Positions 58,741 through 61,257 of a DNA stretch of 64,000 bases are shown here, one piece after another (the first letter of the stretch is position 1; every line of letters starts with the position of its first letter). This DNA comes from Gemmatimonadota bacterium (GTDB lineage: Bacteria; Gemmatimonadota; Gemmatimonadetes; Gemmatimonadales; Gemmatimonadaceae): assembly GCA_026387915.1 (NCBI GenBank), contig JAPLKS010000007.1:124001-188000 (forward strand). The letters are read 5' to 3'. The position numbers were made by a program, and so were the translations under genes. The notes beneath the pieces were generated by a model that worked only from the letters and a program-made list of their open reading frames with translations, was not told the DNA's origin and ran no database searches.

Positions 58741-60114
58741 CTATAGTGCGACTGGCTGAGGTCGTTGTGTCGACTGGAGCTCAGGCACGACCTCATGTAG
58801 ATGCTCTTCGACTTGCTCTGCGCCAGCGGAAACGTCACGTGGCACGGCGTTGCGCGCGATGGCCGTCTCCAAGGCGGGCCAGTGAGACGCATTCAACAGC
58901 TTTACACAAATCGCTGGATCAAACTGCCGACCGCTTTCCTTCATTATTTCTGAGCGGATGACTTCGTACGAGAGGGCGTCTCGATACGGGCGCGTTGTAG
59001 CCATTGCATCGATCGTATCGGCTATAGCAATGAAGCGCGACCACTGCGGTATCTTGTCCCCGACCAGTCCATCTGGATAACCGCTGCCGTCCCATGCTTC
59101 GTGATGACCCCGAATCGCGGAAACCAAATCGTGAAATTGCGACGACTTCCCTACCAGAACTGCACCCTTCGCGGAGTGAGTTTTCATGACAGCAAACTCT
59201 GCTTCAGTGAGTCGGCCTGGTTTCCGGAGAATCGGCGCAAACTCCTCGTGAATCTTGCCCACGTCGTGGAGTAGAGCGGCGGTCGCAAGGCGCTCAATGG
59301 CTCGAGTTCCGAGCCCCGCCGCCCGAGCAACGATTCTCACATACTCAGCGACACGTTGAGAGTGGCCGGAAGTGTACGGATCACGAGCTTCAATCGCAGC
59401 GACCATGATCTGGAGCAACTCTTCATTGAGTCGCTCTAGCTGCCAGTTTGTTTTATAGAAATGCCGAAGACCGAAAAGCGGAATCGCAAACACGACCGAC
59501 CACGCCGGCCCCAGCTTTGCGTACAGGAACGCAAATCCGTACACCGCAGGCACCGCGATCACATCATAGATCAACGCGCTATGCGTGTTCTGCCAAAGCA
59601 CGCCAGCCAGCCTCTGGTGCGTACTGATCGCAATCACCGCACTAACGCAGACCGTATTAACCAAGAAGAACGACGTGAACGCCGCTGCAAACGCGAGCTT
59701 CGAGTGAAGAGAGGCCGCGTCAATGGGACGCCCTCCTAGAGCTCGGAACACCAGGATCGCAACGCTCACGGAAAGTGCGTACTGTCCGAGATTGAACAAG
59801 CCCTTGAGTCGATCACGTCGCTGAAGGATTTCTGCGAGCGCCACCGCAAGCGTTACGGATATGACGACCGAAAGTCCTGGTGCCACCGCTACAGCGCTCA
59901 TGAACGGAACAAACGAAATGTTTCCCATCGCTCCGCGTGGAATGCGATAGGCCATCACGTGCGCAAGAATACCCAAGAGAGCGAAGACCCCCGCGGCCTG
60001 CAGCGAGTCTTCATCGAATCCAAGTTGAGCACGAGCCACGAGCGCCGCGGCTATTAGGGCTGCCGCGACGACTGCTCCTACGAAATACTTTGTTTGGCGT
60101 TCAACCATGACCAT
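58741..60114 (-). CDS. Membrane HD-GYP phosphodiesterase
   Basis: A 457-residue protein. Residues 1-225 carry about seven membrane helices of a sensory module. The HD-GYP domain follows with LLHDVGKIHEEF (283-294) and HHEAWDGSGYPDGLVG (337-352), the HD pair and GYP loop. It should break down cyclic di-GMP to control motility or adhesion. Two in-frame ATGs lie near the start. Codon use is AT-richer than most neighbours. A tiny ORF with a strong ribosome site lies just upstream on the same strand. Confidence 0.92.
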   Translation of the reverse strand: MVMVERQTKYFVGAVVAAALIAAALVARAQLGFDEDSLQAAGVFALLGILAHVMAYRIPRGAMGNISFVPFMSAVAVAPGLSVVISVTLAVALAEILQRRDRLKGLFNLGQYALSVSVAILVFRALGGRPIDAASLHSKLAFAAAFTSFFLVNTVCVSAVIAISTHQRLAGVLWQNTHSALIYDVIAVPAVYGFAFLYAKLGPAWSVVFAIPLFGLRHFYKTNWQLERLNEELLQIMVAAIEARDPYTSGHSQRVAEYVRIVARAAGLGTRAIERLATAALLHDVGKIHEEFAPILRKPGRLTEAEFAVMKTHSAKGAVLVGKSSQFHDLVSAIRGHHEAWDGSGYPDGLVGDKIPQWSRFIAIADTIDAMATTRPYRDALSYEVIRSEIMKESGRQFDPAICVKLLNASHWPALETAIARNAVPRDVSAGAEQVEEHLHEVVPELQSTQRPQPVAL

Positions 60115-60116
60115 GT

Positions 60117-60345
60117 GAGGAAAGAGAACCCCCGACCTCGACTCAACCCCAGCTCAACGTGTCACCGAGCACGAACGCGAAGAGACTCGCGATGATACCA
60201 GCCAGAGCTTGCATGTTGCGTCACCTCCCTTGGGTACTAGAGTCACGCCCACCATCAGACGTGCATACCAGGTTGGCTCCGCTCCTGTTGCTAGTCGGCC
60301 CGCTCAGCTTCTCTCAAAGCCGAAGTCGGGGGTTGTAGTCTCCTC
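60117..60345. repeat. Imperfect inverted repeat flanking the small ORF
   Basis: The left arm (60117-60141) and the right arm (60321-60345) are imperfect inverse copies of about 25 bases, centred on AACCCCCGAC and its complement. About 180 bases, including the 23-codon ORF, lie between. It could form a long-range stem in the leader of the HD-GYP gene. Confidence 0.5.
60143..60214 (-). CDS. 23-residue hydrophobic small ORF with strong ribosome binding site
   Basis: ATG at 60212-60214 follows AGGGAGGTGA by six bases (60221-60230), nearly a full complement of the 16S anti-SD, which is the best such site in the window. The peptide starts MQALAGIIASLFAFVLGD and is mostly hydrophobic, so it may insert in the membrane. 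It ends 28 bases before the HD-GYP start. It may be a leader peptide, a small regulator of the neighbouring membrane enzyme or a signalling peptide. Function unknown, and the ORF is too short for homology. Confidence 0.5.
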   Translation of the reverse strand: MQALAGIIASLFAFVLGDTLSWG

Positions 60346-60395: not shown

Positions 60396-61181
60396 CTACC
60401 GCATGCCGTCCACCCAACGATTCGTCGCGTTCAGCACCGCAAGCGCGCCGGCCGTCTCGCTGTTGTCTTTGACCTCGCAGCACCCGGTCAGCAACGTGCT
60501 GCTCCGCCCAGTTTTGGCGCGTAAGCCCACCACAACGAGCTCGCGATCAAAGGCCGAGACGATCTTCACCCCCTCGAGCGTCAGCGAGCGAGCGCCGCCA
60601 TCGGCCAGGACCACCGCCTGCATCGCCGCGCGTGCACTCAACTCCACACGATTCCGATCGCCGGTCTCTACCCCCTCGGCCTCGCCCACAAACAGCTCGC
60701 GCCCACGACGTACCGTCACCTTGCACGTCACACCCTTGGCGCGCGAGCCGCGAAGTTCCACATCCTCGAAGTACAGCGCACGACCGGCATCGTCGACGGG
60801 GGCATGCTCCACCGCGCTCCCTTCTGCCACCGGCGCCGGCAACGTCAACGCCGCTGCCTTTGCCGACGAAACCGCGGCGCCGGGCGCCGAGAGCAACGAC
60901 ACCGCATCCGCTCGCGCCGTCGTCGTGGCCACACTCACCTTGCGATGGTCCACCCGCATCCCGAGCTGCGCCATCAGCGCGCTCTCAATGTTCCGCACCA
61001 TCTGCTTCGCCGGCGTGTCACCCGTCACCAGAACGTGAATCGCCTCCACGTTCCCCGTCTCCGTCGACACAATGCGAACACTCACCACCCCGGCCAACGT
61101 CGCGATCAACTCTTCCGCGCGCTGCAATGGCAATACACTGCCAGCGATCGGCGACGAAACTCCCGGGTGCGGTTGTGTCAC
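60396..61181 (-). CDS. Conserved-looking protein, unknown function
   Basis: A 261-residue soluble protein. The N-terminal 100 residues (ELIATLAGVVSVRIVSTETG then HVLVTGDTPAKQMVRNIESA) form an alpha/beta domain, followed by an Ala/Pro linker and a second alpha/beta region with two copies of a G-R-V-E/D pattern (VRRGRELFVGEAEGVETGDR). GTG at 61181 has GAGG five bases upstream; the longer frame from 61253 lacks one. It lies between the HD-GYP and sigma54 activator genes. No enzyme motif is seen. Confidence 0.62.
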   Translation of the reverse strand: MTQPHPGVSSPIAGSVLPLQRAEELIATLAGVVSVRIVSTETGNVEAIHVLVTGDTPAKQMVRNIESALMAQLGMRVDHRKVSVATTTARADAVSLLSAPGAAVSSAKAAALTLPAPVAEGSAVEHAPVDDAGRALYFEDVELRGSRAKGVTCKVTVRRGRELFVGEAEGVETGDRNRVELSARAAMQAVVLADGGARSLTLEGVKIVSAFDRELVVVGLRAKTGRSSTLLTGCCEVKDNSETAGALAVLNATNRWVDGMR

Positions 61182-61257
61182 TTCTGCCTCTTCAATGGGT
61201 GCAAAACGTGAACGGAGGCACCGCCGAGTAACCGACAGGAATATATGCCCCACCTAA

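Follow-up and report, generated by a model that had tools for sequence, protein, structure and literature searches.

A small ORF with a strong start signal precedes an HD-GYP gene

In the 64,000-nucleotide stretch of Gemmatimonadaceae DNA analysed here (the window), a minus-strand gene at 58741..60114 encodes a MASE9-HD-GYP protein of 457 aa, which is recognized by the Pfam models HD_5 (2.3e-28), HD (5.5e-17) and MASE9 (1.6e-8). Its translation carries the LLHDVGK and GSGYP motifs of an HD-GYP-type catalytic domain and matches the HD-GYP-type phosphodiesterases 5z7c and 4mcw in the PDB, and from its sequence the product is presumed to be a c-di-GMP phosphodiesterase. A second conserved gene lies upstream on the same strand (60396..61253, minus) and is syntenic in every locus tested, adjoining the element described below in 58 of 58. 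The C-terminal domain of its protein resembles the LeuA regulatory domain (AlphaFold/Foldseek, E about 1e-5). We considered this gene as an RNA-binding regulator and found the idea unsupported, the best Foldseek match being the LeuA regulatory domain and the matches to dsRBDs being weak.

Between the two genes lies a small open reading frame (ORF; 60143..60214, minus) of 23 codons followed by TGA (60145-60143), which begins with an ATG at 60214 and would encode the peptide MQALAGIIASLFAFVLGDTLSWG. Its stop codon is 28 bases from the HD-GYP ATG (60114), in agreement with the preliminary description of the locus. That description had also drawn attention to a strong ribosome site six bases before the ATG, and the comparison across the window bears this out. 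The sequence AGGGAGGTGA (60230-60221, minus), followed by the six-base spacer CGCAAC and then the ATG, contains the Shine-Dalgarno (SD) sequence GGGAGGTGA (60221..60229, minus), whose predicted duplex with the 3' end of 16S rRNA has an energy of -17.2 kcal/mol. This is the strongest of 1804 start codons (those of ORFs of 15-50 codons on both strands of the window), the runner-up being -14.0. It also exceeds every SD found for the 81 stop-free window frames of at least 250 codons, for which the best starts have a median of -5.3 and an extreme of -12.5.

The HD-GYP gene itself had been described as having no visible ribosome site, a statement that holds only in part. A GGGGG run (60133-60129) stands 14 nt 5' of its ATG, with an SD energy of -9.8, and is the sole SD-like run there, although it is paired within the stem P1 described below. 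Averaged across loci, the SD energy is -16.3 for the small ORF versus -6.4 for the HD-GYP gene.

The small ORF bears the signature of a protein-coding sequence

A peptide search of 41 relatives recovered the ORF in five genomes of the genus, one of them the window's own, and in all seven genus members inspected (the window's genome and six more) it lies directly before the HD-GYP orthologue. More widely, MASE9-HD-GYP orthologues in the Gemmatimonadaceae are preceded by a short ORF placed after GGAGGTGA. The 91 distinct peptides collected in this way are 14-39 aa long and mostly hydrophobic (mean hydropathy 0.94), and what they share lies at the C terminus: a Trp falls within the final two codons in 88 of the 91, and an Asp or Glu occupies the position four residues before it (W-4) in 62%, compared with at most 6% at other upstream positions. 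In three lineages the Trp is shifted to 4-5 residues from the stop. A set of 56 distinct elements collected without a Trp filter has a Trp in 56/56 and among the last two codons in 53/56.

Substitutions follow the reading frame. In 26 disjoint pairs the differences at codon positions 1, 2 and 3 numbered 127, 93 and 201 (p about 1e-9), and pN/pS was 0.50 in the group with 23 codons. Several codons are used for the conserved D and E, so selection acts at the level of the peptide. The ORF thus combines a conserved start signal with a frame under protein-level selection and, by these comparative measures, evolves as a protein. We infer from the coding selection and the start signal that it is a functional leader ORF that is translated.

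The preliminary description had proposed conservation in relatives as the check on a chance ORF. Family-wide, the peptide is kept together with its start signal and its position before the HD-GYP gene, and the frame is under coding selection, so a chance origin no longer stands; given conservation at orthologous sites, the extreme SD and the coding signature, we consider it practically ruled out. The small ORF and its leader are very likely a genuine, previously undescribed control element.

The element is inherited with its two neighbours

A covariance model built from the 5' half of the leader was run on 288 genomes of the order. It matched 112, of which 110 belong to the window's family, usually with one copy per genome. 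Across 346 genomes sampled from the whole phylum, all of the matches listed were in Gemmatimonadaceae. When 84,980 species genomes were scanned with a DNA pattern, 63 stretches matched. Nearly all of these carry Gemmatimonadaceae or Gemmatimonadota in their titles, and the covariance model confirmed 62 of the 63; viral contigs scanned for the core pattern gave no match. A typical element also occurs in records titled Chthoniobacterales, Nitrospiraceae, delta proteobacterium and Kuenenia (L057, L059, L064, L081 and L090). Several of these oddly titled records are the same places as matches in Gemmatimonadaceae genomes, and are therefore likely to be mislabelled or mixed bins.

The HD-GYP gene is the constant downstream neighbour, being present in 50 of the 51 loci with enough sequence, with a median of 32 nt between the small-ORF stop and the HD-GYP start across loci; in the one exception the element and the ORF are kept and the HD-GYP gene is truncated or degenerate. 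Conversely, 89 of the 105 genomes with an HD-GYP orthologue in the family sample have a model match. For the 16 that lack one, 14 upstream regions were read and all 14 contain a short ORF with a Trp close to its end, which does not amount to independent proof of the Trp rule since these loci were read by seeking ORFs with a Trp near the end; 13 of the 14 ORFs directly follow GGAGGTGA or GGGGGTGA. Within the window's genus, nine genomes have no detected HD-GYP orthologue and seven of these have no upstream gene either. This joint loss indicates that the upstream gene, the leader with its small ORF, and the HD-GYP gene behave as a single block.

Several loci depart from the usual arrangement. 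In L060 (G008) the element and small ORF are intact and a truncation leaves about 70 codons of the HD-GYP gene, and an HD-GYP orthologue at G222:C4:370297-371619 has one in-frame TAG. The element, or the element together with the HD-GYP gene, is duplicated in some genomes (L092 and L108 in G161; L047/L102; L059 with L057/L079), and in these copies the 5' RNA part is identical or near-identical and the peptides have diverged. Metagenome-assembled contigs end at the element unusually often (L050/L053, L051/L098, L061/L079, L142-L145 and L147); some of these breaks arise because near-identical copies share it. A mobile inverted-repeat element, with P1 corresponding to terminal inverted repeats, was also considered and was rejected because the same two genes flank the element throughout and almost every genome with a match has a single copy.

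A conserved RNA structure encloses the small ORF

The small ORF lies within a conserved RNA, about 200 nt long, that comprises the helices P1, P2 and P3. P1 is a long-range closing stem of 18 pairs in the window, G-U pairs included, in which the 5' arm AACCCCCGACTTCGGCTT (60317..60334, minus) pairs with the 3' arm GAGTCGAGGTCGGGGGTT (60127..60144, minus). The 3' arm overlaps the small-ORF stop codon, includes the GGGGG run and stops about 13 nt short of the HD-GYP start. Inside P1, a conserved junction GAGAGAAGCTGAGCGGGC (60298..60315, minus) leads to P2, where the 5' strand GCGGAGCCAACCTGG (60268..60282, minus) and the 3' strand CAAGGGAGGTGACGC (60218..60232, minus) form short G-C helices split by GA/AA purine mismatches. 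The P2 3' strand contains the small-ORF SD. P2 is capped by the hairpin P3 (60242..60264, minus).

Support for P1 comes from alignment-free permutation tests. Across 56 elements the duplex of each arm with its own partner averaged -27.4 kcal/mol versus -21.2 kcal/mol for permuted partners, the best of 2000 permutations reaching -22.9; with the diverged genera included (n = 83) the values were -33.3 for own arms and -25.4 for permuted ones. The covariation score was 0.370 versus 0.131 for shuffled versions and at most 0.060 for all slid versions, in an alignment fitted to the model's own structure. The strongest covariation is in P3, where, again in an alignment fitted to the model, seven of eight pairs have changed on both sides and 96.5% of cells are paired. 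The outer pairs of P2 are nearly invariant, so this helix is supported by conservation, and covariation backs P3 and P1 better. The compensatory base-pair changes in P1 and P3 are those of a structured cis-regulatory RNA. It is also a possibility that the P1 5' arm pairs with the junction in an alternative local hairpin, for which covariation is weak (-12.5 vs -11.8, p = 0.004).

In loci that have the G-run, its end is commonly 9-16 nt from the HD-GYP start, and the run belongs to P1. Some genera keep P1 yet lose GGGGG, and masking of an SD therefore cannot be the sole role of the stem. In genus g43 (L151, L152, L154, L155 and L158) the P1 3' arm includes GGAC-GGGG-GTCC-type repeats, which could fold as a small local hairpin with the G-run displayed in its loop. 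An Rfam search with the window region and 13 diverged loci at permissive E-values gave no relevant match, the c-di-GMP riboswitch classes included, and no description of this leader was found in the literature searched.

Translation of the small ORF may open the stem before the HD-GYP gene

Control of the HD-GYP gene by translation of the small ORF fits this anatomy and is our leading explanation as judged from sequence. We consider it somewhat better than an even bet that this is a structured, translated leader in which ribosomes that translate the small ORF open P1 and become coupled to the HD-GYP gene, with P2 as the gate. We infer a single leader transcript (a scan for consensus promoters at the locus found none) on which regulation would run as follows. 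Closed P1 would keep the bases immediately 5' of the HD-GYP start paired, resulting in poor initiation. Ribosomes would load at the very strong small-ORF SD and translate the short hydrophobic peptide, and a ribosome arriving at the stop codon within P1 would melt the stem, so that the same or a new 30S subunit could start on the HD-GYP gene 28 nt on, by termination-reinitiation or coupling. That SD forms the 3' strand of the P2/P3 arm, and this arm would gate entry to the small ORF and set the number of ribosomes loading on it, possibly by sensing a ligand or protein. The C-terminal [D/E]xxxW beside the stop may tune termination, or may be the functional end of the peptide. In a simple accessibility model with a ribosome placed at the small-ORF stop, the HD-GYP start region was 0.40 versus 0.36 unpaired, and release was not seen.

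A broader reading, which we put forward tentatively and hold to have a smaller chance of being right than of being wrong, is that the element represents a new class of signal-sensing leader RNA in the Gemmatimonadaceae, in which an aptamer-like P2/P3 gates a leader peptide with [D/E]xxxW close to its stop and the translating ribosome works P1 as a switch for c-di-GMP breakdown; the signal could be c-di-GMP, tryptophan or a membrane cue.

The placement of the conserved residues admits a different role for the ribosome. Conservation is anchored at the stop rather than the start, with the Trp 0-1 residues from it in nearly all peptides and Asp/Glu frequent at W-4, and TnaC provides a precedent as a Trp-sensitive leader peptide (PMC8429421). 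The nascent chain might act in the exit tunnel, perhaps together with a small molecule, to slow termination at [D/E]xxxW(x)-stop, and where the ribosome pauses would then decide whether P1 forms. We regard such arrest as possible but on the unlikely side: tunnel-contact residues in common are absent beyond the Trp and Asp/Glu, the Trp has moved away from the stop in three lineages, and a ribosome held at the stop should partly cover the HD-GYP start region too.

It is likewise unlikely, in our estimation, that the peptide, small and hydrophobic or amphipathic, is the main product, acting on the MASE9 membrane domain or being exported and sensed by the HD-GYP enzyme, while the RNA merely limits its synthesis. 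The hydropathy of the peptides, their C-terminal [D/E]xxxW, the coding selection and the strict pairing with one membrane enzyme would all suit such a role. Against it, peptide length and sequence are highly variable, several peptides have just 14-18 aa and are short for a membrane span, and neither a signal peptide nor a processing motif was identified in them.

The spacer that follows the G-run is T-rich (42% vs 22% background), with at least five T among its first eight bases in 20 of 72 cases, which raises the question of whether P1 and a U-rich tract form a terminator that is prevented by a ribosome on the small ORF. A transcription attenuator of this kind seems to us improbable, as a real T-run is missing from most lineages, the loop of P1 would be about 170 nt, a terminator scan was negative at the site and the HD-GYP start is just about 13 nt away. 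Finally, a type I toxin-like mRNA, whose hydrophobic toxin would be silenced by 5'-3' pairing, SD sequestration and an undetected antisense RNA, has very little to recommend it: the fold is like that of the translationally inert type I toxin mRNAs of the AapA family (PMC6733600) and the peptide is short and hydrophobic, but it is not basic, and the element is no independent module, having fixed neighbours on both sides, being missing where they are missing, and giving model matches confined to one family.

Relation to known leaders and significance

The favoured reading, in which small-ORF translation opens P1, has a close parallel in the ppe2 leader of Mycobacterium tuberculosis, where PPE2 expression requires an upstream ORF, itself under a B12 riboswitch, that acts mainly via termination-reinitiation (PMC11260477). 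In both, if control and translation here are as we propose, the downstream gene depends on translation of a short ORF that is controlled by a structured leader. The present RNA differs in having no Rfam match or known ligand and in preceding a gene for a presumed c-di-GMP phosphodiesterase, and its ORF terminates within the closing stem, leaving 28 nt to the next start, whereas the ppe2 ORF overlaps the start that follows it. The ORF of an arrest leader peptide such as TnaC likewise has about 20 codons and precedes the gene under regulation, and it too has a conserved Trp as well as conserved residues close to the stop. In TnaC the Trp lies mid-peptide; here it adjoins the stop, a long-range stem closes around the ORF and stalling is hypothetical. 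Type I toxin mRNAs, including those of the AapA family and hok, also encode small hydrophobic peptides, whereas the element here is strictly linked to the HD-GYP and upstream genes and has no known antitoxin RNA. Like the c-di-GMP-I and c-di-GMP-II riboswitches, the element would tie c-di-GMP to the expression of its metabolic genes, but its fold and conserved sequence differ from theirs, with no match at the permissive threshold. It is a structured leader with a leader ORF, and it lies outside every named riboswitch, arrest-peptide or toxin family.

With this element come an RNA family and a family of leader peptides, neither of them present in Rfam or the literature searched and both tied to one c-di-GMP enzyme throughout the Gemmatimonadaceae. 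It also provides a compact natural system with an ORF lodged within the closing stem of the leader RNA that carries it. Should the switch prove real, it would show that c-di-GMP turnover is set at the level of translation in a little-studied phylum.
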